Shown here: positions 7,108-60,904 of the stretch, in pieces
How the letters are laid out: the number at the start of each line of letters is the position of its first letter
Position numbering within the stretch: position 1 is the stretch's first letter
Assembly: GCF_005063415.1 (NCBI RefSeq)
Contig: NZ_SUEG01000008.1
Span: 1-64,000, forward strand
DNA length: 64,000 bases
From: Mesorhizobium sp.
GTDB taxonomy: Bacteria; Pseudomonadota; Alphaproteobacteria; Rhizobiales; Rhizobiaceae
Reading direction: 5' to 3'
Made by a program: the position numbers and the translations under genes
The notes under the pieces: generated by a model
What the model was told of the DNA's origin: nothing
Databases searched by the model: none
The model's input: only the letters and a program-made list of their open reading frames with translations

Positions 7108-7120
7108 AGCGTTTTCTTCT

Positions 7121-7161
7121 ATTAGTGCATTTGACGTAACTGATGCACGTGCTGCACTAAT
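7121..7161. promoter_or_regulatory. HxlR operator region, inverted half-sites
   Basis: ATTAGTGCA (7121-7129) and TGCACTAAT (7153-7161) form a perfect 9-bp inverted repeat separated by 23 bases. A third partial site, ATGCAC (7143-7148), lies between them and is inverted relative to GTGCAT (7125-7130). They lie midway between the divergent hxlR and reductase starts, where an HxlR dimer would control both promoters. Confidence 0.6.
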
Positions 7162-7196
7162 GGGCATGCCAAGCCTATTTTGTCAAGGAGAACAAC

Positions 7197-8036: not shown

Positions 8037-8285
8037 CGAGCCTGAAAAGGTCCGAGGGCGGCAAAGAAGCCTAAGGCGGAGGTCACGCGCAAGCTGCCCG
8101 AGCACCAGGTCGGACAGCTGCTCTCGGATTGCGGTCACCAGTGCATGGCAGGACGAACGTTGGCGAATGCCAGCGTGCAGCCAGACCGAATAAATCCCGA
8201 CGCGCCAAATCGGAAAAGAAAGCCTCGGCACTGTTCCGCGATGGCCTCACGCCAATCTCAATTCAACGACTTAGCGGAAACCGAT

Positions 8286-45425: not shown

Positions 45426-45588
45426 TCTCACACCAGCCCCACTCTGGCGGCCTGCCGGTCGGCAAGCCCAGAAGGCGAGACTAACGCATTGCCAGCCTAG
45501 AGCAACTTGGATTCGAACACTCGTCAGTTCCCTGGCGGAACCGGCGACCGGACTGCATACCAAACGCGTTCGGATCAGATCGTGGCGG

Positions 45589-46929
45589 TTACTGGAGCTT
45601 CCTCGGGTCGCCCGCGGAGACCCGCGCGGCATTGCGATGAAGCAGCATGACCTGCTCGGCGTCCGATATTCGGTCGTAAATCGGCTCCAGCGCACCGTCT
45701 TCATCGAGTGCGAGAGCACCCGACAAATCGGGTGAAAGCACCGTCAGCTTTTGCTTGATGCCCGCCAGTTCCTCCATGCCGAGCGCCAGCCAGTTGTTGG
45801 CGCCGCAGTAGCTGGCGAAGTCTTTGCTGGCGAGAACACTGTGGGGATATTTCTTGGTCAGGGTCTGGAGGCGCTGGACCTCGTTTACAGCCGAGCCGAA
45901 GACAGAGAATGTGAGCCGGTCGGTAAGCCCGACATTGCCGAACATCACATTGCCGACATGCAGGCCGATACCATAGTTTATGTCGCTCAATCCCTGCTGC
46001 TTTCTGCGCAGATTGAGATCCATCATGCGCGCGGTGGCCTTGTGCGCTGCTGCAAGAGCAGCCTGGCAGGCGATCTCGGACTGCGAACGGTGCCTTGCGC
46101 AAGGGTAGACGGCAATGAAGCCATCACCTATGAAACTCATGATTTGCCCGCCCTTGCGATTGAAAGGTGCAGCAGCGGCGTCGAAAAACTGGTTCAGCGT
46201 ATCGATATAGACTTCGCGGCCGGAGGTTTCGGCAAGTCTTGACGACCCGCGCATGTCGCCCATGACCAGTGCCGCCCGGATTGTATCACCCTCGCCGCGC
46301 TTGATCTGGCCGTCGAGCACGCGCCTGCCGGCGTCGCCGCCGAGATAAGTGGTCATCATGTTGTCGGCAAGCTTGGTGAGCACCGCCATCTTGGTTGCGA
46401 TAGCGAGATGGTTCTGGAGGCGCAGCAGCGCCGAAATCATGCTGTCGCTGAAGCCTGCAGCACTGTCGGTGGACCAAGACCCGATCATGCCCTGACTGGT
46501 GTTGCCGCTGAAGGGATGGACGAAAGCCATGTAATCGGTGACGCCCATAAGCTTGAGGTCGTCGAAAATAGGAAATTCCGACGGCACCGACGGGTCGAGC
46601 CGGCGCCGCAGATGGTCGAGCTTGTGGCTGAGCAGATGGTAGTATGGGCTGGTCAGGAATCTGTCAGAATGAACGCCGTTCTCCTTGCGGAAGCCCTCCA
46701 CTTCCAGGCCCTGGCCGCGCAGCCAGGTGAAGCCGAGCGCGTCATAAAGCGGATGAAGCATCGAAAAGCTCAAATGCACCCGCTTCAGCGGCAGGCCGGC
46801 AGCAGCCAGCCGTTCACAAAAGCCCCTTACCAATGTTTCCAGGTCGTCGCCCGCCAACGCCGATTGGGTCAGCCAATCGGCAACCTTATCCATGAGAATG
46901 GCAGAAATTTCTGCTTGCGCTGTGCTCAT
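45589..46929 (-). CDS. class III nucleotidyl cyclase, soluble
   Basis: This 446-residue protein has an N-terminal sensor-like region (~1-205: LVRGFCERLAAAGLPLKRVHLSFSMLHPLYDALGFTW) common in rhizobial cyclases and a C-terminal cyclase domain (~215-400). Metal aspartates are present (VMGDMRGSS and SFIGDGFIAVYP), as are VN and R in AVNEVQRL. The usual adenine-contact Asp region reads RLTFSVFG, lacking that Asp, so substrate choice may differ or the site is tuned. AAGGAG precedes the ATG at a rather long distance. It lies 51 bases upstream of nothing coding on its strand except the UDP-sugar dehydrogenase, which ends just before it. Confidence 0.88.
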   Translation of the reverse strand: MSTAQAEISAILMDKVADWLTQSALAGDDLETLVRGFCERLAAAGLPLKRVHLSFSMLHPLYDALGFTWLRGQGLEVEGFRKENGVHSDRFLTSPYYHLLSHKLDHLRRRLDPSVPSEFPIFDDLKLMGVTDYMAFVHPFSGNTSQGMIGSWSTDSAAGFSDSMISALLRLQNHLAIATKMAVLTKLADNMMTTYLGGDAGRRVLDGQIKRGEGDTIRAALVMGDMRGSSRLAETSGREVYIDTLNQFFDAAAAPFNRKGGQIMSFIGDGFIAVYPCARHRSQSEIACQAALAAAHKATARMMDLNLRRKQQGLSDINYGIGLHVGNVMFGNVGLTDRLTFSVFGSAVNEVQRLQTLTKKYPHSVLASKDFASYCGANNWLALGMEELAGIKQKLTVLSPDLSGALALDEDGALEPIYDRISDAEQVMLLHRNAARVSAGDPRKLQ

Positions 46930-46980: not shown

Positions 46981-48366
46981 TCAGGCCTTCACCACCGTCT
47001 CTCGGGCTAGCCCGAGGCGGCCAAAAACATTGCGTGTATCGACGATCAGTCGAGCGTGATCCGCGATCGCCTGATAGTCGATCGCGTCGTGGTCGGTTGC
47101 AACGACGACAGCGTCGAAATCCTTCAAGGCCACCTCGGTCAATTCGACCGAGCGACGCCCCTTGATCGCCATGTGCTCCCGTGTGGCCGGGATTTCGGTA
47201 ACATGCGGATCGTGGAATTCCGCCTTGCCGCCCCATTCCTCGATGAGTTCAATGAGCCGCAATGAGGGGCTTTCGCGGATGTCGGGCACATTCTTCTTAT
47301 AGGCGAGCCCGATGATGAGAATGCGCGAGCGGCTGAGCGCCTTGCCGCAGCGCCGGTCCAGCGCCTTCGCCAGTTCATCGACCACATGACGCGGCATAGC
47401 CGTGTTGATCTCTGCCGCCAGCTCGATGAAGCGGGTCGGCAGTTCGTATTCGCGCGCCTTCCACGTCAGGTAGAAGGGATCGATCGGAACGCAGTGCCCG
47501 CCAAGTCCAGGGCCAGGATAGAAAGGCATGTAGCCGAAGGGCTTGGTCTTTGCCGCCTCGATCACCTCCCAGATGTCGATTCCCATCGCACCGAGCACGA
47601 CCTTCAACTCGTTGACGAGGGCTATGTTGACCGAGCGGAAGATGTTTTCCGTCAGCTTGACCGCCTCGGCGGTCGCCGTGGTGGAAACCGGAACGACGGT
47701 CTTGACCACGCCGTGGTAGAAAGCCTGCACGAGCGTCGCCGCTTCAATGCCGTCACCGGCCACGACCTTGGGGATCGTCGCGACTTCAAAGCTGCGGTTG
47801 CCGGGATCCTCGCGTTCGGGCGAGAAGCCCAGGAAGAAGTCTATCCTCGACTGCAAGCCGGTTTTTTCCAGGATGGGCTTGATCACGTCGTCGGTGGTGC
47901 CGGGATAGGTGGTCGATTCCAGCACGATCAGCTGACCGAGACGCAGATGCTTCGCGATGGTGCCTGCCGTGTTCCTGACAAAGGAGAGATCCGGCTCGCG
48001 GTGTTTCGTCAGTGGTGTCGGAACGCATATGATGATGACATCGCAGACGGCCAGTTCGGCAAAATCCGCAGTGGCGCGGAACCGTCCGCTCGCCACCTGG
48101 CCGGCAAGGGCTGTCGACGTCACCGCCTCGATGTAGGATTGGCCGTTGTTCAGGCTCTCGACCTTCTGGCCTTCGATATCGAAACCGGAAACCGGGAAGC
48201 CGGCGCGTGCGATCGCAACCGCCAGCGGCAACCCGACATAGCCCAGTCCGATCACGCCGACTTGCGCGGCGCGCGTCGAAATCCGGTTCAGAAGACGGTC
48301 ATATATCGATCGTGAGGCGTCCAAAAATCTGCTTTCCGTTAGTTCGGACAGGCCGTCCGCTTCCAT
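46981..48366 (-). CDS. nucleotide-sugar dehydrogenase (UDP-glucose/UDP-HexNAc 6-dehydrogenase family)
   Basis: This ~461-residue UDPGDH-family enzyme has the NAD-binding VGVIGLGYVGLPLAVAIA, the conserved ESTTYPGTT and SPERED segments, and the catalytic cysteine loop GPGLGGHCVPIDPFYLTWKA. It ends with the C-terminal UDP-binding domain (GLAYKKNVPDIRESPSLRLIELI). It resembles WbpA/VipA/WecC proteins that oxidise UDP-GlcNAc or UDP-GalNAc to the uronic acid rather than Ugd. It probably supplies an acidic sugar for the nearby glycosyltransferases. The start is taken as the ATG at 48366; a TTG seven codons earlier is possible. Confidence 0.93.
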   Translation of the reverse strand: MEADGLSELTESRFLDASRSIYDRLLNRISTRAAQVGVIGLGYVGLPLAVAIARAGFPVSGFDIEGQKVESLNNGQSYIEAVTSTALAGQVASGRFRATADFAELAVCDVIIICVPTPLTKHREPDLSFVRNTAGTIAKHLRLGQLIVLESTTYPGTTDDVIKPILEKTGLQSRIDFFLGFSPEREDPGNRSFEVATIPKVVAGDGIEAATLVQAFYHGVVKTVVPVSTTATAEAVKLTENIFRSVNIALVNELKVVLGAMGIDIWEVIEAAKTKPFGYMPFYPGPGLGGHCVPIDPFYLTWKAREYELPTRFIELAAEINTAMPRHVVDELAKALDRRCGKALSRSRILIIGLAYKKNVPDIRESPSLRLIELIEEWGGKAEFHDPHVTEIPATREHMAIKGRRSVELTEVALKDFDAVVVATDHDAIDYQAIADHARLIVDTRNVFGRLGLARETVVKA

Positions 48367-48429
48367 GGTGAGGCTCACCGGTCCCAAGAGCCCCGAGGCA
48401 TATTGCGGAAAATCGACGTCCGCAAGCCG

Positions 48430-49590
48430 TCAGACCGGCACCTTCGCCTTCAGGCTTGCGGCAGCCATCGCATAGCCGCCGGCGGCGCCATCGATGAAAT
48501 GAACATGATCGCGCTGCAGCGGCGATGCGACGAGACATGTCATCAAGGCCGATTTCTGGCGGTGCAGGCCATAGTTGCAGATGCCCGCCTCTTCCGCCTG
48601 TTTCAGCCGGTTCTCGATCCGTTGCAACACATCCGCGTCAACGTCGATGGTCATCTTCAAGCCATCGTCGAACTTCCGGAAATCCGAATTGCTGGCCACT
48701 TCGCGTTTGTAGATCTTCGGATCGAATCTGCCGATCGTCCAGCCATATCTATCAGTAACAGCCGTAAGCGTCATCAGGAACACTATCCACAGCTTCGACA
48801 GCCACCGCCGTCCTGCCGGCGCCATGGCCCGCGCCTCGATATCGAGGCCGGCGGGCAGCACACTGTAGTCCGGCCCGTTCACCGGCACCGGGTGGCCATC
48901 GCGTTCCTGCCTGCCGGCAAGCGCGATGATGTCGGAAACCAGAAACTGAAAATCGCGCAAGTCGCGCGACGCCCCCGGGATGGCTATGATCGAGACGATT
49001 TCGCCATGCCGGGCTTCGATCGGGTTCCAGCGGCACGAGAGGCCGGTCAGGTCCGGCCGCGCGCCGGCCGGCGCAGGATCGATGCGGTAGCGCCCCGCTT
49101 TCATCTCGGCTTCCGCCCAACTGCCGCCACCTCCGGCGAACATGGCATAGAAGACCGCATCGGAGGCCTGGAACCTCGCCACGCGAACGTCGAGGCCTTG
49201 CGCTCTTATATCCTTTATCGGCACGATTGCGGCACGCAAGGTCAGGTCCAGTTCGTCCGCCACCCATCTTTGGACAGCCGCCAGCGCGTTGCGGGTGATC
49301 TCCAGCGCCGAGGCGGGAAACGCCACGAGCGCGCCGTCGCCGCCGAAGACAAAGGGAAGATCTTGCCTACCCAGCGCATTGAGCAGCGCCGAAATGACGC
49401 TGGCGCCGGCCATATTGACGGTTTTATAGCGCCCCGCCTCGATCGCCTTGGTCGAGCCGACGATGTCGGCGGTGGCCAGCGCCCAGCTATCGGGGAGAGG
49501 CCGATAGTTATCGATATCGGCAACGCTTTCGAACTTTGCGAAGACCGGCAAAGAAGCGACAAACGGGTCGGACGTGGCAGCTGTTTCCAT
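48430..49590 (-). CDS. DUF3095 protein, adenylate-cyclase-related
   Basis: This ~386-residue protein of the DUF3095 family is a distant relative of class III cyclases. The signature FVASLPVFAKFESVADIDNYRPLPDSWALATADIVGST begins the domain, and the cyclase-like metal aspartates are present in ATADIVGST and VFGGDGALVAFP. The later Asn-Arg catalytic elements are not clearly visible, so activity is uncertain. I chose the ATG at 49590; the frame opens at 49608. It ends 63 bases before the dehydrogenase start and may be cotranscribed with it. Confidence 0.82.
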   Translation of the reverse strand: METAATSDPFVASLPVFAKFESVADIDNYRPLPDSWALATADIVGSTKAIEAGRYKTVNMAGASVISALLNALGRQDLPFVFGGDGALVAFPASALEITRNALAAVQRWVADELDLTLRAAIVPIKDIRAQGLDVRVARFQASDAVFYAMFAGGGGSWAEAEMKAGRYRIDPAPAGARPDLTGLSCRWNPIEARHGEIVSIIAIPGASRDLRDFQFLVSDIIALAGRQERDGHPVPVNGPDYSVLPAGLDIEARAMAPAGRRWLSKLWIVFLMTLTAVTDRYGWTIGRFDPKIYKREVASNSDFRKFDDGLKMTIDVDADVLQRIENRLKQAEEAGICNYGLHRQKSALMTCLVASPLQRDHVHFIDGAAGGYAMAAASLKAKVPV

Positions 49591-49682
49591 GAGCATCAGA
49601 TAGCACATTCCAGTGCTTGAGGGTGAAGTCGATCATGCTTCGAAATTGACTTGCGCAGGCTTTCCGATGATAGGGTCCGGCG

Positions 49683-50786
49683 ATGCGAATTGCTTTCTAC
49701 GCGCCGCTGAAGTCGCCCAATCATCCCGTTGCCTCGGGCGACCGCCAGATGGCACGGATGCTGGTCAAGGCGCTGGAGCATGGAGGGCATAGCGTCGAAC
49801 TGGCATCCGAATTGCGCTTCTATCTACGTGAACCGGATTCGAAAAGTTTCGATGCGCTCAAGTTCGATGCGCTCAAGATCGACGCCCGGGAGGACGCCGC
49901 GCGGCTGGCAGGGCTTTGGGATCGTGACGGCAAGCCCGACCTGTGGTTCACCTATCATCCCTATTACAAGGCGCCCGACCTGATCGGGCCCGAACTGGCG
50001 TTGGCCTTTGGCGTCCCCTATGTGACGGCGGAAGCCTCCTATTCGAGGCGGCGCAACACCGGCTTGTGGGCCGATACGCAAGCGTTGGTGGCGCGAGCCG
50101 TCGAACAGGCGGCGCTGAACATCTGCTTCACGCAAAGGGATCGTCAGGGACTGGCAGATGCGATACCCGACGCCGCTTTCGGCATGCTTTCGCCTTTCAT
50201 CGACACATCGGGATTCCGGGAAACGCCGGCACGGGGTTGTCCGACGCGCCTCGTTACGGTCGCCATGATGCGCCCGGGCGACAAAGTCGAAAGCTATCGC
50301 ATGCTGGCGCAAGCGCTCGGTTCGATCGGTCATGTGCCCTGGACCATGTCAGTCGTCGGGGACGGACCTGCGCGCGAAGAGGTCAAAGCGCAATTCGCCG
50401 GCTTGCCCGCCGACCGTATCGAATGGCTTGGCGCGATTGAGCCAGCCGCCGTGCCGGATGTCCTTTACAGTGGGGGAATTTACGTCTGGCCGGGTTTCGG
50501 CGAGGCCTATGGCGTTGCCTATCTTGAAGCACAGGCCGCCGGCCTTCCGGTTGTGGCTCAGGACATCGCCGGCGTGCCGGAGGTCGTGCGGAATGGCCAG
50601 GCCGGGTTTCTCACCCCGCCGGGCGATGTGGCGGCATTCGCTTCTGCCATTGAAAGGCTTCTGGCTCGTAACGACGAAAGATCCATCATGGCCGCAGAAG
50701 CCAGACGTTTCATCCTCGAAGAACGTTCTCTCGGTGCTGCGGCGGCGCGTCTGGCCGAACTTCTTGCGACGATCCCGGTCTCATGA
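49683..50786 (+). CDS. GT4-type glycosyltransferase
   Basis: This 367-residue GT-B fold enzyme of the glycosyltransferase group 1 family has an N-terminal domain starting MRIAFYAPLKSPNHPVASGDRQMARML (nucleotide-independent half). Its C-terminal domain includes VGDGPAREEVKAQF, the E-x7-E motif in GFGEAYGVAYLEAQAAGLPVVA and GGIYVWPG. It transfers a sugar from an activated donor to a glycan or lipid. It overlaps the deacetylase gene by 4 bases (ATGA), so they are cotranscribed. Together they fit synthesis and trimming of an N-acetylated surface sugar. Confidence 0.9.
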   Translation: MRIAFYAPLKSPNHPVASGDRQMARMLVKALEHGGHSVELASELRFYLREPDSKSFDALKFDALKIDAREDAARLAGLWDRDGKPDLWFTYHPYYKAPDLIGPELALAFGVPYVTAEASYSRRRNTGLWADTQALVARAVEQAALNICFTQRDRQGLADAIPDAAFGMLSPFIDTSGFRETPARGCPTRLVTVAMMRPGDKVESYRMLAQALGSIGHVPWTMSVVGDGPAREEVKAQFAGLPADRIEWLGAIEPAAVPDVLYSGGIYVWPGFGEAYGVAYLEAQAAGLPVVAQDIAGVPEVVRNGQAGFLTPPGDVAAFASAIERLLARNDERSIMAAEARRFILEERSLGAAAARLAELLATIPVS

Positions 50787-51559
50787 CATCAGATCAGATC
50801 TGGCAACCCTTGGTGGAGGAACTGGCGAGCCGGCAACGGGCAAACCGTAAGGCAGAGTTCTGGCTGCGCGACGACGACGCCGTGGATCCGACGCCTGCGC
50901 TTGATCGGCTGCTCGACCTCACCGGTGAATTCGCGGTTCCGGTGACCCTGGCCGTCATTCCCGCCTTGACTGACGAGAAGCTTGCCGTTCGGCTTGACGA
51001 GGCGCCGCATGCCACGGTCGCCATCCATGGCTGGGCGCACCGAAATCATGCGCCCGAGGGCCAGAAGAAGCAGGAGCTCGGCGCGCATCGGCCACGCGAG
51101 GCGGTGCTCGATGATCTGGCTCGCGGGCTGTCGCACGTAACCGGCCTGCATGGCGCACGTGCCGTTCCGATGCTGGTGCCACCCTGGAACAGGATCGACG
51201 CCGGCTTGGTATCCGACCTTGGATCGATAGGATTTTCGGCATTGTCGGTCTATGGGCCGCCGAGGCCGGCTTCGCTGGCGGTCATCAACAGCAATGTCGA
51301 CATCATGGATTGGCATGGTACGCGCGGCTGCTGCGATCACGGCCTATTGGTTCAGGCTATCATCGCGCAATTGCAGCATGCATTCGATGGCGGCGAACCG
51401 GTCGGCCTGCTCACCCACCATCTCGTACATGATGAATCGGCCTGGCTTTTCCTCGAACGGCTGTTCACCGTCACCGCACAGACTGAAGCCTGCGCATGGC
51501 TTCCGATCAGGACATTGATCGGGCGCAGCGCCGGCAGAGCAATTCCAGGAAAAGTGTGA
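50783..51559 (+). CDS. polysaccharide deacetylase-like protein
   Basis: This 258-residue protein carries the marks of the NodB-homology TIM-barrel-like fold seen in divergent deacetylases: WLRDDDAV (~28-35, metal Asp pair), AIHGWAHRNHA (His motif, ~80-90) and MLVPPWNRID (~129-138, Arg/Pro-Trp motif). It probably removes acetyl groups from a glycan. It is translationally coupled to the GT4 gene. Its last residues (RAIPGKV) and stop codon are encoded by a rhizobial palindromic repeat that begins at 51536, so the original C-terminus has been replaced. Confidence 0.85.
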   Translation: MTSDQIWQPLVEELASRQRANRKAEFWLRDDDAVDPTPALDRLLDLTGEFAVPVTLAVIPALTDEKLAVRLDEAPHATVAIHGWAHRNHAPEGQKKQELGAHRPREAVLDDLARGLSHVTGLHGARAVPMLVPPWNRIDAGLVSDLGSIGFSALSVYGPPRPASLAVINSNVDIMDWHGTRGCCDHGLLVQAIIAQLQHAFDGGEPVGLLTHHLVHDESAWLFLERLFTVTAQTEACAWLPIRTLIGRSAGRAIPGKV

Positions 51560-51608: not shown

Positions 51609-52463
51609 TCAGCGCTTTTTGCGCAATGAGACTGGAAGTTTGAGCGTCTGGCCATCCCGCGCGGCAAAAGCGCCGGTAAACCTGTCCTTGGCCAGTTTCT
51701 CGATCTTGTCCAGTTCCTTGTCGGTGCGTGTCGGATCGTGGTGAAACAGGGCAAGCCCGCGCGCACCCGCCGCCTCACAGAGCTTGACGCCCTGTTGCCA
51801 CGTCGAGTGCCCGTAACCGCGGCGGCGTTCCATTTCCTCCTCGGTGTAGGTGCAATCGTAAATGACGAGGTCGGCATCTTCGATCAGGCCGAGCACCGCC
51901 TGATCGAGTTTGTCCGGCTCGTGCTCAGTGTCTGTGATCACCGCCACGACGCGGCCGCCCCATTCGACCCGGTAGCCTATGCAGCCGCCCGGATGGATAA
52001 GACTGCCCGTTCGGACCACCACCCCTTCGCGCGGGCGAAGCACGTCTCCGGATACGAAATCGCGATAGTCGAGGCTTGCCTTGCAGGCCTCCAGTTTCAC
52101 CGGAAACCACGGCGGCCGCATGAACTCATCGACCATCTGCCGGGTCGTCATGTGTCCTGCAAGATGCCCGGACCAAAGCGTAACCTTGGCGCTCCGGTCA
52201 TAGATCGGCGCAAAAGACGGCAGCCCGATGATGTGATCGTAATGGCAATGGGTGAAAAGCAGGTCGAAATCGGTCACGCCCAACGCCTGAAGCGCCGCGC
52301 CGGCAGGCCGTAGGCCAGAGCCTGCGTCGAACAGAAGCGTATGCTTACCGCATCGCATCTCGACGCAGATTGAGTTGCCGCCATAGCGAGAGAATTCTGG
52401 CCCTGATACCGAAATGCTGCCGCGGACACCCCAAAACCTGACCAGGAAAACGTTGTCGTCCAT
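51609..52463 (-). CDS. MBL-fold metallohydrolase
   Basis: This 284-residue metallo-beta-lactamase-fold enzyme has the metal motif THCHYDHIIGLP (~70-81, HxHxDH form), further ligands near HPGGCIGYRVEW, VITDTEHEPD and FHHDPTRTD, and the N-terminal FWGVRGSISVSGPEFSRYGGNSICVEM. That opening is typical of the phosphodiesterase/RNase Z-like branch. Because its immediate upstream neighbour on the same strand is a cyclic-nucleotide-binding protein, a cyclic-nucleotide or phosphodiester substrate is possible but unproven. GAAGGGG precedes the ATG at 52463. Confidence 0.9.
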   Translation of the reverse strand: MDDNVFLVRFWGVRGSISVSGPEFSRYGGNSICVEMRCGKHTLLFDAGSGLRPAGAALQALGVTDFDLLFTHCHYDHIIGLPSFAPIYDRSAKVTLWSGHLAGHMTTRQMVDEFMRPPWFPVKLEACKASLDYRDFVSGDVLRPREGVVVRTGSLIHPGGCIGYRVEWGGRVVAVITDTEHEPDKLDQAVLGLIEDADLVIYDCTYTEEEMERRRGYGHSTWQQGVKLCEAAGARGLALFHHDPTRTDKELDKIEKLAKDRFTGAFAARDGQTLKLPVSLRKKR

Positions 52464-52568
52464 GCTACCCCTTCGCCCATCATATCCAAACAACTGCTGC
52501 TAGGCGAGACAGGCTTTGTCCGGGTGATCTTCTCAGCGAGAGGACAGTGCCGTCACGACGGCGAGGCG

Positions 52569-53053: not shown

Positions 53054-53178
53054 TAGAGCAACGGACGCCCAGATGGAATCAATTCTCTTTCCGGGATGGC
53101 GAGACAAACCACGCGAAAGGCCGCGAGCCCGATGTCGTGCACCGGCAGAATGATCCCATCTGCATGTCCGTTGCTCTA
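53054..53178. repeat. long imperfect inverted repeat, rhizobial palindromic element
   Basis: TAGAGCAACGGAC (53054-53066) and GTCCGTTGCTCTA (53166-53178) are perfectly complementary, and pairing continues inward with CAGATGGAATC and its counterpart near 53155-53163. The 125-bp element separates the exporter and cNMP-binding genes. Its right end supplies the TAG stop codon (read as CTA at 53176-53178) of the exporter gene. Confidence 0.75.
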
Positions 53179-55890
53179 TGACAACAGTTCCTTGAAGATA
53201 CCGTTCCCTGCCAAAAGTGTCTCGTGTGATCCGTCTTCCGCCAATTGACCCGAGTCGAAGACGATAACCCGATCGAACATCATCGCCATTGCCGGATTCG
53301 TCACGACCCACACAATTGCCGGCGAATGGCCGTCGCGCCTGGCTTCCTCGAGCACATTTCGCAGCACCTTATCCTGCATGCGCTGGTCGAGCGCCGACAG
53401 CGGCCGGTTGAGAATGAGAAAATCGGGACGCTTGAGCAAGGCACGGGCAACATCGAGCTTCTGTCGCTGTCCACCGGTGAGCCGCCTGCCGCCGGAGCCG
53501 ACGTTGAAGTCCAGGCCGACATCCAGAAGTTCGCCATAAAGCCCCAGTTCGTCAAGAATGTCATAGACGATGGAGCGTATGCGGTCCGGCGCGTCGGGAT
53601 GATTGTTGCCCACACGCCCGAACAGGACATTATCCATGACGGTGGCCGCGGCAATGTATTTGGCAGGATCATACCGTTCGACCGCATTGTGCAGCTCGGG
53701 CGGCAGGTCTTCATAGAACCGGTTGCGTGCAGCGACGATCTTGCTCATCAGCTCGTCGCTCAGCAGGCCGAAGCGGTGCCGGGGCTCGATATAGGCAAAG
53801 CTCAAGGTGACGATCATGGCGCGATCGTGCTCCGGAACCGCCTCGTAGGGACGGTTCTTGAGCCGTTGCAGCAAGGTTTCGTAGGCGGGTATCTCCTCCG
53901 CGCTCATGAAGGCAAGCTGCTGGAAGAACTGGTGATCGGGCGGCAGGTCGGCAAACAGCTCGATCGCCTGTTTGGCGATCTCCAAGCCCATTTCGTAGAG
54001 CGTGCGGTCGAGGCCGGCTTGCCTCAGCACGGAAGCAAAATAGGGATTGGCCGCCAGGGCCCTGTCGGCCAGTTCGGGGCCGGCGGCAGCGCCGAAGAGC
54101 AGGTTTTGGCCGATCGTTGCTTCCTTATTGTACGCGCCCGGTTCGAAAGGAACCACCAGTCCGCTCAGCCCTTCTTGTTCCAGCCGGGTCCGCAGCGCCG
54201 CACGCAGCTCGACGATCCGCCTGGCAAGTTCCGTGTGACGCGTGAGGTCGGCCGAAGAGCGCAAGCCAAGATCCAGAATGTCGCGCGACAGAACAACCGC
54301 GTCGAGCACCCGACGCACGGCTTCAAAGAGGTCGTGCGGGCCGGTAGCGCCAGCCGAAGCATAGTTGATCCAGTCGCTGTGGATATCAAGATCCGGATTG
54401 CCCGACCGGCGCGCCTCGTGGATGTTCCAGCGGTGCTGTTCTGCCGCAGCACCGTCATAAGGCACCGATGTCAGCGGCGCATGCTTCAACCCGTAGAGCA
54501 GGTTGTCGCGGAGGCTTGCCTGGAACAGGAAAACATCCGACGAGGCATACGACATGCGCCGTCCGGTTACTGCTTCGGGGAGTTCAAGCAGGTCGTCGGT
54601 GCCCGAAGCGACCCTTCCGCTGTCCGGCCAGTTCAGCCGCGCGAAGGCTTCTGCAAGCGCCTCCGCTCCACCTGTTGCGGTACTGACCAGCGCCACCGTC
54701 TCACCCGGCTTGACCTGGAGGGAGATGCGGTTGAGAAGCATTGCACCGCCATCGTCTGCTATGGACAGATTGATCGCCGAGAGCGGCTTGGTCATCGGAT
54801 CGGGATCGTCGATCGTCAATGCCCCGATTTTCGGCGCGATGAGACCTTCGACGGTGAACTGTTCAACGACCTGTTGATATTTGACCTGGACATCCTGCCG
54901 ATCCTGATCCCAGTCGATCAGTTCCTTCATCGGTCCGGGCAGGTCCTTGTAGGCGCCGATCACGGCCACGAGCTGGCCGACGTCCAGCCGCCCCAGGATA
55001 ACCAGATACCCGCCGATCATGTAGAACAGAAAGGGCGTGAGCTGCGCGAGAAAATTATTGAGGAACTTCACCATGAACTTCCATTGGTAAAGATCGAAGC
55101 GGATCTTGAAGATGAGCCCGAGCCGGGCAGCTATGTCGGCGCGCTCGTAGTTTGATGTATCGTGGACGTGAACCGCGCCGATGCCGTCGACGATTTCGCC
55201 AACCCGGCCCGAAAGCGCGCGCGCCGTCAACTGCCGTTGGCGCCCGAGCACGATCAGCCGCCGCCGCATTCGCGGGATGAGCACGATCTGGATCGCCACG
55301 ATCACGACCGCTATCATTCCGAGCCAGACGTTCTGGATCATGATGAACAGCATGGCCGTCAGCGCCTGGCCGCCGAGCAGCACCGGCTGCAGGAAGGCGT
55401 CGCCGATGAAGCCGCCCAGCGGCTCCACCTCGTCCTTCACCATAGTCGCCACTTCGGCGGATTTGACCCGCTTGAAGTAAACCGGCGGAAAACGCAGCAC
55501 ACGGTCGACCAGATCGAAGCGGATACGCCGCAGCATGCGTTCGCCGAGGCGGCCCTTGTAGGTGTTGATGTAGAATTTGAACAGGCCGTTGATGACGACT
55601 AGCAAGAGGAACACAAGGCTCAGGGCAAACAGGGTCTCTTTGCGGTCGAGCTGAAAACCGGAGAAGAACTGGACCTCTCCAATGAACGGCAGGTTATAGT
55701 GTAGCCTCATGAATGGCTGGGTCGCGCCCGGTTGCTCGAAGCCGCGACCTTGGATCGGTCCGTTGACGATCAGCTTCGGCAGGTCGAAGGACATGAAATA
55801 CGGGATCATCGAAAGCACGACGATCATCAATATCCAGAGCTGCTGCTTCTTGGTGTGCGTCCAGATATAGCGGGCTAGGCTGGCTTCCAT
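53176..55890 (-). CDS. ABC exporter-like protein with degenerate ATPase domain
   Basis: This ~904-residue protein has an N-terminal ABC exporter membrane domain (~1-330, six TM; intracellular loop RIRFDLVDRVLRFPP) and a highly altered ATPase domain. The Walker A position reads VSTATGGAEAL (no Lys), Walker B reads FLILNRP (Asp to Asn, Glu to Arg) and the switch His is Asn (VVTNP). Yet the signature LTGGQRQKLDVARALL is intact. Between the Q-loop (VFLFQASLRDN) and the signature lie ~347 residues instead of ~55. The insert contains two further N-(L/V)-L-F-G motifs. It may be a pseudo-ATPase transporter needing a partner. The start is set at the ATG at 55890; GTG at 55938 is possible. Confidence 0.85.
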   Translation of the reverse strand: MEASLARYIWTHTKKQQLWILMIVVLSMIPYFMSFDLPKLIVNGPIQGRGFEQPGATQPFMRLHYNLPFIGEVQFFSGFQLDRKETLFALSLVFLLLVVINGLFKFYINTYKGRLGERMLRRIRFDLVDRVLRFPPVYFKRVKSAEVATMVKDEVEPLGGFIGDAFLQPVLLGGQALTAMLFIMIQNVWLGMIAVVIVAIQIVLIPRMRRRLIVLGRQRQLTARALSGRVGEIVDGIGAVHVHDTSNYERADIAARLGLIFKIRFDLYQWKFMVKFLNNFLAQLTPFLFYMIGGYLVILGRLDVGQLVAVIGAYKDLPGPMKELIDWDQDRQDVQVKYQQVVEQFTVEGLIAPKIGALTIDDPDPMTKPLSAINLSIADDGGAMLLNRISLQVKPGETVALVSTATGGAEALAEAFARLNWPDSGRVASGTDDLLELPEAVTGRRMSYASSDVFLFQASLRDNLLYGLKHAPLTSVPYDGAAAEQHRWNIHEARRSGNPDLDIHSDWINYASAGATGPHDLFEAVRRVLDAVVLSRDILDLGLRSSADLTRHTELARRIVELRAALRTRLEQEGLSGLVVPFEPGAYNKEATIGQNLLFGAAAGPELADRALAANPYFASVLRQAGLDRTLYEMGLEIAKQAIELFADLPPDHQFFQQLAFMSAEEIPAYETLLQRLKNRPYEAVPEHDRAMIVTLSFAYIEPRHRFGLLSDELMSKIVAARNRFYEDLPPELHNAVERYDPAKYIAAATVMDNVLFGRVGNNHPDAPDRIRSIVYDILDELGLYGELLDVGLDFNVGSGGRRLTGGQRQKLDVARALLKRPDFLILNRPLSALDQRMQDKVLRNVLEEARRDGHSPAIVWVVTNPAMAMMFDRVIVFDSGQLAEDGSHETLLAGNGIFKELLS

Positions 55891-55907
55891 ATGCGACTGT
55901 GGACCCT

Positions 55908-56273
55908 TCAGTTGGAAGGATGCAGGATGTAAAAGCACCTGCTGGCGAATGGCGTATCGGCAATTTCTTCGTCGCCAACGGCAAGCTCGAAGCTGCTGTG
56001 CACGGACTTTGTACTGCGCTCAACGATGCAGGGAACCTGCGAGGCGGCGCGATCCGGTTCCGGCGGATGGTAGATGACAACGACATGGGCATTGTTGATC
56101 GGCGAAGAAAGCAGCTGGCCAAACGGTTCGCGGCTTCCGTAGGGCTTTGGCGAACAGCCGAACAGCACGAGGCCGCAGCTGCGCGGCTGGTGCCGGCGGA
56201 TGGACGCCGATGATCCGGACAGATGCAACAGGCACTCTCCGGCACCGGGCAATAGCCAAGCGGCTTGCAGCAT
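55908..56273 (-). CDS. hypothetical protein upstream of the ABC exporter, ~121 aa
   Basis: The frame from the ATG at 56273 (MLQAAWLLPGAGECLLHLSG) to a stop 17 bases before the exporter start has codon choice like its neighbours. It reads as a plausible small alpha/beta protein (RSCGLVLFGCSPKPYGSREPFGQLL; NNAHVVVIYHPPEPD; SFELAVGDEEIADTPF). I recognise no family. Position and strand suggest cotranscription with the exporter. An overlapping plus-strand frame (55899-56213) is less protein-like. It is divergent from the methyltransferase-like gene. Confidence 0.5.
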   Translation of the reverse strand: MLQAAWLLPGAGECLLHLSGSSASIRRHQPRSCGLVLFGCSPKPYGSREPFGQLLSSPINNAHVVVIYHPPEPDRAASQVPCIVERSTKSVHSSFELAVGDEEIADTPFASRCFYILHPSN

Positions 56274-56355
56274 GATCACGTCCGCGGAATCAAACAGTCT
56301 TGCGGGAGGCAAGATTGCGTTGTGTCGCCCAAAATCCCAACATACAAGACGAATT

Positions 56356-57027
56356 ATGATGGATGTCACGCAACCACGCAATGCCATGGACTGGCACGAG
56401 CAAGCCTTGGACCTCACGCGGGGAATTGCTGCTTATGTCGACTGCCCTCTCGTGGCAGGCCTGGCGCGCGTCGTCGCCAAGCATCCGAAGGCCGATATCG
56501 CCAACGCCTTCAACCACAAGCAGGTCGCCTGCAAGATGTGGGCGCTCGACAGGCTGTTCGAAAGCTGCGGCGGCCGGTTCGAGCACATATGGGTTCTGGG
56601 TGGATGGTACGGCGTATTGCCTGCAATGCTTTTCAACGATGCCCGCTTCGACATCGCGGCGGTCGATAGCATCGACATCGATCCCGAAGTCGCGCCGGTC
56701 GCCCGGACCCTCAACCGGGAAGCCGGCGACCGGTTCCGGGCGCTGACGGCAGATATGTACGAACTCGACTATGCGGCCGGGCGGCCCGACCTGATGGTCA
56801 ATACGAGCTGCGAACACATAGCCGATCTGCGCGCCTGGCTTGCTCTGCTTCCGCGGGGCACGAATGTACTGCTGCAATCGAACGATTATTTCAGCGAGCC
56901 GACGCACATCAACTGCGTGGCTTCACTTGCAGCCTTCGAAGCAATGGCGGCGCTACGGGAGGTGCGCTTCTCCGGCGAACTGCCGACAAAAAATTATACG
57001 CGCTTCATGCTGATTGGAACTGTTTAA
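56356..57027 (+). CDS. SAM-methyltransferase-like protein
   Basis: This 223-residue protein has the Rossmann pattern FEHIWVLGGWYGVLPAMLF (~80-97, motif-I-like with GGWYG), FDIAAVDSIDIDPEVAPVARTLN (motif II acidic residue) and a motif-IV-like PDLMVNTSCEHI. It lacks the strict GxGxG, so SAM binding is likely but not certain. The start is one of two adjacent ATGs (56356/56359). It ends at the beginning of a repeat mosaic. It lies between the exporter locus and the glycosyltransferase operon and may modify a sugar or lipid there. Confidence 0.75.
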   Translation: MMDVTQPRNAMDWHEQALDLTRGIAAYVDCPLVAGLARVVAKHPKADIANAFNHKQVACKMWALDRLFESCGGRFEHIWVLGGWYGVLPAMLFNDARFDIAAVDSIDIDPEVAPVARTLNREAGDRFRALTADMYELDYAAGRPDLMVNTSCEHIADLRAWLALLPRGTNVLLQSNDYFSEPTHINCVASLAAFEAMAALREVRFSGELPTKNYTRFMLIGTV

Positions 57028-57255
57028 TGCATTTCGCCCAAAAGTGCGTAGCGGTTTTGGGACAACGACATGCATAAAAACAGGACTTGAAGCGCGTCGC
57101 ACGAATCGCACCAGACGCGACGCGCGTTAGAGCAATTCCAGGAAAAGTGTGAAACGGTTTTCCCGGGAAAAAGCGCGTAGCGCTTTCCCTTGGGAATTGC
57201 GTCAAAACAAAGAGATAGAGCGGTTCGGCGTTTCCGTGAACCGATGAACCGCTCT
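57027..57255. repeat. mosaic of rhizobial palindromic elements, copy B and neighbours
   Basis: Four blocks fill the intergenic space. The first is a symmetric unit from ATGCAT to CGACATGCAT around CCCAAAA / TTTTGGG (57027-57075). The second is a GC hairpin GCGCGTCGC / GCGACGCGC (57092-57100, 57117-57125). The third is the AGAGCAATTCC unit shared with 51536-51604, enlarged by a GGGAAAAAGCGCG / CGCTTTCCC insert (57129-57220). The last is AGAGCGGTTC / GAACCGCTCT (57217-57226, 57246-57255), whose end supplies the stop codon of the downstream glycosyltransferase gene. Confidence 0.8.
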
Positions 57256-58447
57256 AGGATCTATCGTCTGTTTGATCATGAACCTTTCCGAAACCGGGCC
57301 CCACATTTAGGGACCATGTTCGATACCGCTCGCGCAGGATTTGCGCCGAGCGACGTGCGCCTTCCAGATCGAGATGATGCGCGGATGGCGTCGGCCCCCC
57401 AAGCGCCTGTTCGATCGCTTGCGCCAAACCTTCAGGTGTTAGGTCCTTTTCCATCAGCACCGTTGCAAGACCGAGTTCTTCGAGCATCAGGGCGCGAACC
57501 GTCTGTTCGGTTTCCCCGCCGGCTGCGAATGGAACGAGCAGGGAGCGACAACCCGCGCGCAGGACATCGCAGACCGTGTTGTAACCCGCCTGCGAGACTG
57601 ACAGGCGGGCGCCGGTCAGCAGGCTGGCGAAATCCTCGCGGAACCGGAAGATGGACAGGCCCGGCGTCGCATCGCGCGCGATGTCAAACTCGTCTTTCGG
57701 CAGGTTTGGGCCGGTGATCAAACACCATTTCCAAGCGTTGTTGGCATTCTGCGCCGCTGCGATGGTGGAGCTGACAAGGCTCTTTCCGGCAGCCCCGCCG
57801 CCAACCGACACCAGAACGTCGAAGCGCTCGGAGGCCGCGGGCGAGGGCGGCGCGGCAACGAGCCCTGTGTAGGTGACCTCGGCCCTGATCGCCCCAGCCA
57901 GTGGAAATGTCTTGTCGATGGTTGCGAAAGCCGGATCGCCGTGGACCAAAACGAGGTCGAAATGCCTGTTGATGAGATCGACCGTTTCCTCGTTTCGGCC
58001 CGGCTTGACGCGCTCCTGAAGGATATCACGGACGGACGTCGCCAGCAGCGGTCTGGGCGACGTCGCGTCGATGGCCTCGATCAGCGGCAAGAGTTCGAAA
58101 CGCATCTGCCGGCGTCCAAATGGAAACGCCTCGACAATGACGATATCAGGCCTGCAATCCCGGAATGCCTGCAGCAGCATCTCTGAACGCCATTTCTTGA
58201 AATCATCGTCGATGGGTTTGCCTTGCAGGTCGACAAGTCCGGAAAATCCTTCATCACCGGAGGTGACAGGTGGCAGGGTTACAGATTTTACACCCGGTCC
58301 CGGAAACCCCGCGATCGGCGCTCCGCCGGTCACGACGGTTACGTCAAACCCGTCATCGACCAGAGCCGCCGCAATGCGGCTGGCGCGCGCGAGATGGCCG
58401 ATACCGAGCAGGTGCTGGACATAGAAGAAAGCGCGCAGCCGCTTCAT
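57254..58447 (-). CDS. MurG-like (GT28-type) glycosyltransferase
   Basis: This ~397-residue GT-B enzyme begins MKRLRAFFYVQHLLGIGHLARASRIAAALV, the pattern of MurG/GT28-like transferases acting on long glycan or lipid acceptors. The C-terminal donor-binding half has VSVGGGAAGKSLV, SQAGYNTVCDVLRAGCRSLLVPF and the acidic/Gln motif GGETEQTVRA. It is the last gene of the three-gene operon and overlaps its neighbour by 4 bases (ATGA). The terminal codons adjoin a palindromic repeat. The donor and acceptor are unknown. Confidence 0.85.
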   Translation of the reverse strand: MKRLRAFFYVQHLLGIGHLARASRIAAALVDDGFDVTVVTGGAPIAGFPGPGVKSVTLPPVTSGDEGFSGLVDLQGKPIDDDFKKWRSEMLLQAFRDCRPDIVIVEAFPFGRRQMRFELLPLIEAIDATSPRPLLATSVRDILQERVKPGRNEETVDLINRHFDLVLVHGDPAFATIDKTFPLAGAIRAEVTYTGLVAAPPSPAASERFDVLVSVGGGAAGKSLVSSTIAAAQNANNAWKWCLITGPNLPKDEFDIARDATPGLSIFRFREDFASLLTGARLSVSQAGYNTVCDVLRAGCRSLLVPFAAGGETEQTVRALMLEELGLATVLMEKDLTPEGLAQAIEQALGGPTPSAHHLDLEGARRSAQILRERYRTWSLNVGPGFGKVHDQTDDRS

Positions 58448-59688
58448 TCGGCGGCCCGCCACTCCCGCTCGAACAGCTCCTTGAGCTGTCCAATGCTTGC
58501 CATATGATCGAAATTGCCGCGCACGCGCCGCTCCGCGGCGTCGCCGAGGCGGTCGCGGAGCACGGGATCACGGATCAGGCGCTCCAGCGCCTGTGCCAGG
58601 GCAATCGGGTTTTCCGTCGGAACCAGCAGCCCGGTTTCATCCGGCGATAAAAGCTCCGGCACGCCGGAAATATCGGTCGACACGCAGGCAAGCCGCTGGC
58701 TAGCCGCTTCCACCAGAACGTTCGGCAGACCGTCCCGGTCACCATTTGCGGTGATCCTGCAGGCAAGGGCGAAGATGTCGGCACACCGGTAGTGCTCAAG
58801 CACCTCCTCCTGCGCCAGCGCGCCTTTCCAAGAGACGCGACGATCCAGGCCGAGCTTTTGCGCCAGCGCCTTGAGCCGTTCCAGTTCCTCGCCGCCGCCG
58901 ATGTGCTCGAAACGCCACGCCAAATCACCAGGCAACAGGGCAAGGGCCTCCAGCAACGTATCGTAACCTTTCTTTTCAACGGCGCGCCCGACGCTCAGAA
59001 CGATAACGGGTTCGTCCGGCGCCGAGCCGTCATGCTGTTTTCGCGCCTCGCCGAAACTGCCGAAGCGATCAAGGTCGAGGCCATGATAGCTCAGATGCAC
59101 AGACGAGTTGCCGTTAGCGAGTTTTTTCAGACGGTCGAAGCCGGTTTTCGTGCAAGTGACCGTCCAGCGGGCCGAGGAAAGCTTCCCAGCCAGATCCCAG
59201 TCCGCTGAAGTCCAGATGTCCTTGGCATGGGCCGAGCAGCTCCAGGGCAGGCCACGAAGCTGGCTGGCATAGCGCGTCACCGATGCCGGTGTGTGCGCGA
59301 AATGTGCATGCAGCCAGCCTGCGTCTTCCGGCCATTCGGCCGCCAGCACGAGCGCTTGCCCGAAGCGGCGCGCGCGATTGCGCGTAAAGTCGCGGGGCAT
59401 ATCGGCAGCCAGCGATCCGAGCGCGCGCCAGAAGCACGGCCGCAGCAGATAGGCAAACAGCGAGCGAAGCACGCGCAGCGGCTCTTGATGCAGATATTCC
59501 GGCAGATAATGGACGGGCGCTTTGATCTCGTCATGCACGGGGTGGCGTTTTTCGTCGGTCGGCCGCCTGAGCGCGACGAGTATCAGGTCGAACCCCGCAC
59601 GCTCAAGACCGAGCAGTTCCTGCGCGATGAAGGTTTCGGACAGCCGCGGATAGCCCTTCAGAACCACGACGATCTTGCGATGTTGCAA
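58444..59688 (-). CDS. GT4-type glycosyltransferase
   Basis: This 414-residue GT-B protein has an N-terminal half MQHRKIVVVLKGYPRLSETFIAQELLGLERAGF, the entry motif shared by exopolysaccharide GT4 enzymes (PxLSETFI). The C-terminal half contains VLSVGRAVEKKGYDTLLEAL and DGLPNVLVEAASQRLACVST (donor site with Glu). It is the middle gene of a tight operon, 1 base after the upstream gene and overlapping the next by 4 bases. It is likely to add one sugar of the locus glycan in the cytoplasm or at the inner face of the membrane. Confidence 0.92.
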   Translation of the reverse strand: MQHRKIVVVLKGYPRLSETFIAQELLGLERAGFDLILVALRRPTDEKRHPVHDEIKAPVHYLPEYLHQEPLRVLRSLFAYLLRPCFWRALGSLAADMPRDFTRNRARRFGQALVLAAEWPEDAGWLHAHFAHTPASVTRYASQLRGLPWSCSAHAKDIWTSADWDLAGKLSSARWTVTCTKTGFDRLKKLANGNSSVHLSYHGLDLDRFGSFGEARKQHDGSAPDEPVIVLSVGRAVEKKGYDTLLEALALLPGDLAWRFEHIGGGEELERLKALAQKLGLDRRVSWKGALAQEEVLEHYRCADIFALACRITANGDRDGLPNVLVEAASQRLACVSTDISGVPELLSPDETGLLVPTENPIALAQALERLIRDPVLRDRLGDAAERRVRGNFDHMASIGQLKELFEREWRAAE

Positions 59689-59689
59689 C

Positions 59690-60904
59690 TCAGGTCATTC
59701 CTTCAATGACCGAAAGGTGATGGCCGGCCCGCCGGTCGAGCAGTTCCGCGACGATTTCGGAAATATGAGGCAGCCCCTCCAGCGTCAGATGCGGATTGCT
59801 CTGCGACGGGCGGGGCCGGTCCGGCAGCACCTTCAGTGCATCAGCAAACCGCCGGGAATCCTCGGCTTCTTCCGGCAAAAGCATCTCGATGAGGCCGAGT
59901 TCGGCTGCCCGCCGTGCGCGGATCAGTTGTTCCCGGCGGGGCTCGACGCGCGGCACGATCAGCGCCGGCTTGTCGAAAGACAGTATCTCGCAATAGGTGT
60001 TGTAGCCGCCCATCGCCACTACCGCCTTGGCGCCCGCAATCAGGTCTTCCATGCGGTTGTCGAACTCGATGATCTTGATGTAGGGGATCTTGGACCCCTT
60101 CCTGAGCAGCTTGTTGCGCTTGCGCGCCGGCATGTAAGGCCCAAGCACGATCAGGGCTCTATGCTGCAATTGCGGATCCTGCTGATAGGCATCGATGACG
60201 TCGTGGATCAGATCGGCGCCGTCACCGCCGCCACCGGTGGTAACGAGGATATAGTCGCCCTCGGGCCGGTGGCCGGGCAACTCGTTCCGCTGCAGGCTCC
60301 GTTGCAGGAAACCGACGAACCTCATCTTTGCCCTGACAGCCGGGGGTACATCCAGGCCGGTCAACGGATCGTAGAAATCCGGCGGACCATAGGCCCAGAC
60401 CTTGTCGTAGAAGACGCCTATCTTGCGCATCACGTCTCTGCGTGCCCACTCTGCTTCGAGCAGATGCGGCGCATCCATCACCTCGCGCAGGCCAAGCACC
60501 AGCGTGGTGCCCCGCGTCTTGAGGTAGGACAGCGTGTCCTCAATCTCACCGCGCAGGCCGAGCGGTTCCTTGTCGACGATGAAGATATCCGGCCGGAAGG
60601 TCTCAGCTGTATGGCGGATGATCGACTGGCGCATCCTTAGCGTCTCATGCAGATCGATGTCCTTTTCCAGCGAGGTGTATTCGCCGTTGCGCAGCTTGAT
60701 GACGCTGGGGATCTTCACGAAGTCGACACGGGCGCGGTAGTCGAAGGCGCCAGCGATAGTCGCACCCGAAATGATAAGCACCTGAAGTCCGCGGAAATCC
60801 TCGACCAGCGAATGCGCGATAGTCCGGCACCGCTGCAAATGGCCGAGCCCGAACGTGTCGTGGCTGTACATGAGAATTCGAGCGTTTTCTGCGTGCTGGG
60901 TCAT
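59690..60904 (-). CDS. MurG-like (GT28-type) glycosyltransferase
   Basis: This 404-residue protein starts MTQHAENARILMYSHDTFGLGHLQRCRTIAHSLVEDF, the same GLGHLxR pattern as the downstream 57254-58447 enzyme, so the two are probably paralogues. The C-terminal half has YILVTTGGGGDGADLIHDVI, AMGGYNTYCEILSFDKPALIVPR and VEPRREQLIRA. It is the first gene of the three-glycosyltransferase operon. No strong ribosome site is visible (weak AAGAGACG). Acceptor and sugar are not predictable. Confidence 0.85.
   Translation of the reverse strand: MTQHAENARILMYSHDTFGLGHLQRCRTIAHSLVEDFRGLQVLIISGATIAGAFDYRARVDFVKIPSVIKLRNGEYTSLEKDIDLHETLRMRQSIIRHTAETFRPDIFIVDKEPLGLRGEIEDTLSYLKTRGTTLVLGLREVMDAPHLLEAEWARRDVMRKIGVFYDKVWAYGPPDFYDPLTGLDVPPAVRAKMRFVGFLQRSLQRNELPGHRPEGDYILVTTGGGGDGADLIHDVIDAYQQDPQLQHRALIVLGPYMPARKRNKLLRKGSKIPYIKIIEFDNRMEDLIAGAKAVVAMGGYNTYCEILSFDKPALIVPRVEPRREQLIRARRAAELGLIEMLLPEEAEDSRRFADALKVLPDRPRPSQSNPHLTLEGLPHISEIVAELLDRRAGHHLSVIEGMT

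Follow-up and report, generated by a model that had tools for sequence, protein, structure and literature searches.

Can the fold of an ATP-binding cassette (ABC) exporter be kept without its ATP-driven motor and be gated by another ligand? The question is raised by a minus-strand gene in the 64,000-nucleotide stretch of Mesorhizobium sp. DNA analysed here (contig NZ_SUEG01000008.1, positions 1 to 64,000 of the forward strand; hereafter the window), which a first reading of the letters alone, called here the original prediction, had described as an ABC exporter-like protein with lost catalytic residues and a large insert, possibly a regulated pseudo-ATPase. Transport powered by ATP is what defines ABC exporters, whereas the family to which this protein belongs has kept the body of an exporter together with a cyclic-nucleotide sensor but not the motor residues. 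Judged by its sequence, the protein is built on the known ABC exporter fold yet lacks what defines an exporter driven by ATP, and it probably acts as a gate or switch under the control of a signal and not as a pump that burns fuel. Residue M17 of the open reading frame (ORF), at position 55890, is the likely start of a 904-residue product since the beginning MEPSLARYIW is conserved, and the residue numbering of the original prediction agrees with this start; coordinates of all features are collected in Table 1.

The exporter body and its ATP site

The order of domains is that of a type I exporter, an ABC_membrane transmembrane domain (TMD) followed by an ABC-fold nucleotide-binding domain (NBD; PF00005, 3.9e-10 in Pfam), and the score against the MsbA profile TIGR02203 (175.6 bits) lies below the curated cut-off of 602, placing the protein outside MsbA. 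Structure prediction, proposed as a check in the original prediction, returned an ABC-exporter fold: the AlphaFold2 model built with the family alignment reached a predicted local distance difference test (pLDDT) score of 84.4 and a predicted template modelling score of 0.79, with a pLDDT of about 90 for residues 361-904, including the NBD region, and lower confidence for the TMD, with two poor stretches (residues 175-191 and 312-321). Among the 50 structural matches listed, whole exporters aligned with Z about 26-27.5 over ~410-470 residues; the NBD of ComA matched with Z 27.8, and structures of SUR were among the fold matches. The NBD is thus predicted to fold well though its ATP and Mg sites are dismantled.

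This dismantling was read against ten usable ABC ATPase ORFs from nine of 14 stretches fetched from the same genome, one of which (L191), resembling an ATPase of the importer type, does not enter the tree and profiles described below, where nine exporters remain. Walker A reads VSTATGGAEA in place of the canonical VGPSGAGKTT, and the segment from Walker B to the D-loop ILNRPLSALD in place of VLDEATSALD. The Walker A lysine has become A409 and the neighbouring Ser/Thr E410, and the Walker B aspartate and catalytic glutamate have become N828 and R829; the original prediction had named the lysine, aspartate and glutamate losses correctly, and loss of the Q-loop glutamine (S451) is to be added to them. 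It was also right that the switch histidine is gone, but its place is taken by T864 and not by the asparagine proposed, which lies one residue off (N865) and aligns with the arginine following the histidine in canonical ATPases. Because residues A409, S451, N828, R829 and T864 leave no complete ATP site, the protein is not classed as an ATP-driven exporter. As stated, this copy has the signature LTGGQRQ, yet its being 'intact' means little, since the family does not conserve it (first Gly in 11/88, second Gly in 22/88 members).

These changes are not peculiar to one copy. In an alignment of 88 of 150 family sequences (A2; rows at least 93% identical or holding X were left out) seven members retain the canonical Lys, one the Gln, 17 the Asp, nine the Glu and two the His, while the D-loop Asp persists in 66 of 84. 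The original prediction had named homologues with normal motifs as the finding that would reduce this copy to a decaying one; with 40 further members chosen by us from the class survey (L199-L238) the set grows to 128, and none of them combines all six catalytic residues (Lys, Ser/Thr, Gln, Asp, Glu, His), so that the changes are family-wide. A canonical ancestor sought within the same 128 members was likewise found in no complete form. Loss of the ATP site across the family is well supported by these alignments.

The family is confined to a single class as far as surveyed. Counting the window's own genome each time, surveys detected it in 32 of 61 near genomes, in 94 of 297 from the order, in 129 of 385 from the class and in 27 of 398 from across the phylum, where every match belongs to the same class or closer; the genera represented include Mesorhizobium, Rhizobium, Sinorhizobium and Phyllobacterium, and there are matches on 262 plasmid records. 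A TMD tree places the family on one side of a branch from the nine canonical exporters, with a support of 100 in the Shimodaira-Hasegawa-like approximate likelihood ratio test, and only this monophyly is used, given the very long outgroup branches. On the same tree the lysine needs five changes and the CNBD fusion described below four; the former number would fit repeated better than single loss of the lysine, subject to the same long branches. Literature searches, with most subscription papers outside their reach, found no description of this protein family.

The insert and the cyclic-nucleotide-binding partner

Between Q-loop (451) and signature (804) lie about 353 residues, in agreement with the insert of about 290 residues noted originally, and the N-x-L-(Y/F)-G segments recognised at residues 463, 596 and 754 proved to be real. 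They mark three repeats, R1 to R3, whose profiles (73 sequences) match one another with probabilities of 90.9% (R1/R2), 98.3% (R2/R3) and 95.4% (R1/R3), compared with 2.5%, 2.6% and 2.1%, respectively, for the best-scoring of 30 column shuffles per pair, bearing out the suggestion that the region after the Q-loop had been triplicated. Against the canonical post-Q-loop segment of the nine same-genome exporters, R1 scores 97.7% (28 columns) and R3 92.3% (56 columns), while R2 reaches only 23.7% (shuffles at most 2.3%), so that the kinship of R2 to this segment rests on R3 and R1. The repeat asparagines are kept in 81/88 (N463), 88/88 (N596) and 88/88 (N754) sequences of A2, and N596, N754, G758, R563 and R722 are invariant there and in 40/40 further members.

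Modelled separately, residues 470-800 reach a pLDDT of 89.8. A Foldseek comparison of this model with the PDB gave no match at E 0.001 or better and no other family stood out among the PDB matches, from which no new fold should be concluded; only the R2 part meets helical subdomains of exporters, in the first 21 matches listed, with Z up to 5.4 over 72 residues, a value that according to the tool may mean just a common arrangement. Taken together, the matches among repeats, those to the canonical segment and the structural match of R2 support, from sequence profiles and a predicted model, a triplication of the post-Q-loop unit as the origin of the insert.

Directly downstream of the ABC gene lies a gene for a stand-alone cyclic-nucleotide-binding domain (CNBD), which has no other Pfam domain and specifically no helix-turn-helix. 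The association was followed in 120 loci, comprising the best 80 of at least 517 confirmed stretches (L031-L110) and 40 picked by us for diversity from matches of the order and phylum surveys (L141-L180), one genome being probably counted twice (L095, L166). A CNBD is present in all 120, fused to the ABC protein in 12 and starting on the same strand within 323 bp downstream in 108; an ORF caller had found it in 58 of the first 80, an all-frame search in 80 of 80. Fusion is at the C-terminus of the ABC protein and occurs in distant members (other Alphaproteobacteria, Ruegeria for example), PF00027 being confirmed in 7/7 fused forms scanned. In the 40 loci added later (L199-L238, flanks up to 2 kb) a CNBD is near in 37, five fused and 32 on the same strand. 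Linkage of the two genes is thus well supported by gene order, and the idea of a regulated pseudo-ATPase raised in the original prediction gains support from it.

In the best CNBD match per locus, the residues that we take to form the ligand pocket are kept almost throughout (Gly in 121/121, Glu in 114 and Asp in six of 121, Arg in 118/121), and the partner in the window combines PF00027 with this Gly-Glu pair and Arg. Erosion has thus struck the ATP site and spared the cyclic-nucleotide site, whose pocket looks intact. Automatic names mislead on both counts, since in S. meliloti the ABC protein is annotated as 'ABC transporter ATP-binding protein' and the CNBD partner (CP050512 1488820-1489284) as 'Crp/Fnr family transcriptional regulator', when the orthologue in the window is by Pfam a CNBD alone, without DNA-binding domain.

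A resemblance to Pycsar was also noted. In that system PycC makes cCMP or cUMP, and a CNBD effector kills or arrests the cell. The CNBD described here resembles that of PycTIR (8.9e-17) and a cyclase of the surrounding cluster resembles PycC (3.6e-18), in profile similarity only; unlike in Pycsar, the companion of the CNBD is here a protein of ABC-exporter fold, and the surrounding cluster is of glycan type. PADLOC gave generic-looking matches only.

Candidate modes of action and their rivals

What the protein may serve is suggested by its surroundings. Of 22 window genes queried, 16 match one 49-kb plasmid stretch of S. meliloti (L184) at 54-84% identity; these are all the genes of 39456-60904, the ABC gene included, and the six misses lie outside that interval. 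The annotated S. meliloti order ends in an FkbM methyltransferase and a LacI regulator. Since the anchors agree, namely the LacI-family factor SM_b21272 (PMC11387232), the sulfotransferase SMb21249 and deacetylase SMb21247 (PMC5498481) and the glycosyltransferases smb21252 and smb21265 (PMC10128002), L184 and with it the window cluster can be placed by gene order on the pSymB locus smb21252-smb21271, whose gene set around the ABC orthologue is the same. According to PMC10128002, nine genes of this locus protect against phazolicin, through a putative phazolicin-protecting polysaccharide (PPP), and the screen concerned also showed depletion of the adenylate cyclase gene cyaA. Of these nine genes, seven are reported to be up-regulated under Myxococcus attack (PMC10315480). 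The ABC protein, its lost ATP site and the CNBD are not described in the accessible text of PMC10128002. How this putative rhizobial surface polysaccharide, relevant to peptide-antibiotic resistance and possibly to symbiosis, is controlled or exported is a question opened by the present cluster.

The reading preferred here, in which our confidence is moderate, is of a pseudo-ATPase ABC-fold membrane protein that is switched by a cyclic nucleotide instead of being powered by ATP and that has a part in exporting or controlling a surface glycan; both gating and substrate are inferred. The protein would act as a dimer whose opening and closing are set by occupancy of the CNBD, with a cyclic nucleotide supplied by the cluster cyclase or by other cyclases. 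The state of the CNBD would be relayed through the enlarged helical subdomain, a platform of ~330 residues, to the TMD, which might either permit flipping of a lipid-linked glycan down its gradient or switch the PPP-type glycosyltransferases, with no ATP hydrolysis by the ABC protein itself. A bolder form of this proposal, tentative and on balance doubtful, would make it the first ABC-exporter fold turned into an ATP-independent scramblase or channel, gated by a cyclic nucleotide, through which a lipid-linked surface glycan would pass, with the tripled helical subdomain as coupling element under CNBD control. ABC-exporter folds that serve as channel or regulator instead of pump are familiar from CFTR and SUR, both of which still bind ATP; we know of neither a CNBD nor a triplicated helical subdomain in these. 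With exporters of the MsbA type (ABCB-like type I, type IV fold) the protein shares the fold of TMD and NBD, the motif order and, in most members, the D-loop Asp, and it differs from them in lacking a complete ATP site and in having the tripled subdomain and the CNBD partner.

Several observations weigh against this reading. Three loci (L204, L236 and L237) have no CNBD within 1.7-2 kb downstream (~1.7 kb for L204), even by the family profile. The lysine at position 409 survives in 33/128 members, and two members keep Lys, Gln, Glu and His together, so some relatives may still bind ATP; in these two, Glu occupies the Ser/Thr position and the Walker B Asp is replaced by Ser. Counting by gene order, with 20 genes for 22 numbers, would put the ABC orthologue at about SMb21269, and it may not be among the nine PPP genes, as far as the accessible text of PMC10128002 goes. 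There PPP itself is a putative polysaccharide, and the change in the phazolicin minimum inhibitory concentration of a cyaA mutant is small. A simple cyclic AMP story is weakened since the paper on Clr, the cyclic AMP regulator, has in its available text no gene written smb2125x, smb2126x or smb2127x; targets of Clr lie in the adjoining cluster.

Two explanations, both unlikely, compete most closely. In one the protein is the degenerate half of a heterodimer, ATP being hydrolysed by an unlinked canonical ABC exporter as in TM287/288, TmrAB and TAP, for which the genome, with at least 150 NBD matches, has partners to offer. Degenerate-site exporters (these three, ABCC and ABCG5/G8) likewise have non-canonical catalytic residues in an NBD, and they pair one degenerate with one canonical site, whereas every catalytic position drifts here. 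The accessible text of PMC7756269 describes degenerate sites as common in asymmetric exporters and reports Lys to Arg in Walker A of ABCG5/G8 (Arg stands at 409 in 31/128 members of the present family), but the degenerate sites it covers still hold ATP, while here Walker A, Q-loop and Walker B have all drifted. Within flanks of at most 10 kb, moreover, a linked canonical exporter is present in only two of the 120 loci and lacking in 118, the constant associate being the CNBD.

The other explanation, to which a similarly low probability is given, sees a non-transporting scaffold of the SUR kind that relays the cyclic nucleotide to glycosyltransferases or to the Opp-type importer, its own transport path unused. 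The SUR structures among the fold matches favour it, as do the ordinary ABC ATPase domains retained by that importer and the frequent company of both systems: in 80 loci (flanks up to 10 kb, ORFs from our own caller) each of two GT28-type glycosyltransferases was found near the ABC gene in 69, the GT4 enzymes of 58444 and 49683 in 60 and 47, the Opp-type ATPase in 58 and the solute-binding protein in 50. The TMD, however, is the most conserved region of the protein (mean entropy in A2 of 1.20 bits compared with 1.92-2.06 elsewhere), an observation no less compatible with a functioning translocation path.

Distinctly improbable is continued binding of ATP in an altered pocket, in which the acid at 410 and the Asn at 828 would make up a swapped site, binding Mg or mimicking phosphate, by which ATP is locked or sensed. 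An acid at 410 does accompany Asn or Ser at 828 in 88/128 members, against Ser/Thr with Asp in 9/128, and classing members by acid or not at 410 and Asp or not at 828 gives 94, 5, 14 and 15 (Fisher p 4.9e-8, kinship ignored). This association is not significant once relatedness is counted (sign test, median p 0.63 and 0.25, with too few changes), and coevolution of the two positions is not claimed; furthermore, Rhizobiales members have for the most part lost Lys, Gln, Glu and His. Finally, loss of all catalytic residues might betray a pseudogene, but this has next to no probability, since 24 of 24 same-genus copies fetched (own copy included) are 904 residues long, dN/dS (the nonsynonymous to synonymous rate ratio) is 0.18 for the whole gene and 0.19 for the insert (21 pairs, seven sequences from seven genomes), no member of the 128 is complete and the gene is widely carried in the class: it is under purifying selection and not decaying. 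A sequencing error or frameshift is ruled out, homologues having the common length and motifs.

The gene cluster and other features of the window

Table 1. Features of the ABC gene, its partner and the surrounding cluster (positions in the window)
Feature	Position	Strand	Basis or remark
Pseudo-ATPase ABC exporter-like ORF	53176..55938	minus	920 residues from GTG; likely coding sequence 53179-55890 plus stop, 904 residues
TMD, residues 1-345	54856..55890	minus	PF00664, E 2.6e-17; best-conserved part of the family
Beta-strand loop between transmembrane helices TM1 and TM2, residues 58-81	55648..55719	minus	predicted; periplasmic side from exporter-fold position
Degenerate Walker A, residues 402-411	54658..54687	minus	alignment with same-genome canonical ABC ATPases
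Q-loop position S451 (canonical Gln)	54538..54540	minus	alignment
Repeat R1, residues 444-580, N463	54151..54561	minus	canonical place after Q-loop; profile comparison
Repeat R2, residues 575-740, N596, R722	53671..54168	minus	inserted; profile comparison
Repeat R3, residues 735-803, N754/G758	53482..53688	minus	continues into signature; profile comparison
Signature LTGGQRQ, residues 804-810	53461..53481	minus	alignment
Degenerate Walker B and D-loop (N828, R829; D835 kept)	53386..53421	minus	alignment
Switch His position T864	53299..53301	minus	alignment
Stand-alone CNBD, 149 residues	52569..53018	minus	PF00027, 4.9e-23
OppC-type permease	39456..40637	minus	
OppB-type permease	40634..41632	minus	
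Family 5 solute-binding protein	41635..43647	minus	
Opp-type double ATPase	43530..45719	minus	
Class III nucleotide cyclase	45589..46929	minus	PF00211; Lys to Ser at usual purine-specifying position
Nucleotide-sugar (UDP-glucose/GDP-mannose) dehydrogenase	46981..48387	minus	
DUF3095 protein	48430..49608	minus	
GT4 glycosyltransferase	49683..50786	plus	
Polysaccharide deacetylase family protein	50783..51559	plus	name from 86% match in WSM1497; no Pfam match here
MBL-fold hydrolase	51609..52493	minus	weak profile similarity only
Class I SAM methyltransferase	56350..57027	plus	name from WSM1497 match; no Pfam match here
GT28-C (MurG-like) glycosyltransferase	57254..58462	minus	
GT4 glycosyltransferase	58444..59688	minus	
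GT28-C glycosyltransferase	59690..60904	minus	S. meliloti counterpart probably smb21265 (by order)

The remaining cluster genes keep company with the ABC gene less often: of the same 80 loci, 33 have a match to the MBL-fold hydrolase, 26 to the deacetylase, 25 to the cyclase and 22 to the nucleotide-sugar dehydrogenase, and the 40 diverse loci (L141-L180) show the same gene set in part. The MBL-fold hydrolase scores 73.5 bits against RNase Z (cut-off 252) and 40.1 bits against a cyclic-nucleotide phosphodiesterase family (cut-off 400); that it degrades the signal would be a guess. In S. meliloti RCAM1750 (L184) the counterparts of the GT28 gene at 57254 and of the DUF3095 gene each match in two adjoining pieces (at 7084-8209 and 21187-22306 of L184) and are absent from the gene table, so that both may be broken in this strain; in S. 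meliloti 2011 (L181) the GT28 gene matches in one piece.

The window holds four class III cyclase domains (PF00211; 16749-17819, 31127-33670, 37429-38844 and 45589-46929) beside a CNBD. In the cyclase of the cluster both Asp and the Asn at what we presume to be the metal and purine-specificity sites are kept, the Asp positions being those for metal, and Ser stands where Lys would specify a purine; the other three have Lys there. The same Ser occurs in 24 rhizobial orthologues and in S. meliloti, and Lys is kept in six of seven cyclases near more distant family members. The nucleotide made by the cluster cyclase may, on this pattern, be an unusual one.

Two further ORFs were noted by eye. That at 18331-21396 on the minus strand (1021 residues) has four similar tandem segments of ~130 residues followed by an OmpA-like end, and that at 22691-25663 on the plus strand (990 residues) is an apparent fusion of a GT2 glycosyltransferase, a methyltransferase and a polysaccharide deacetylase.

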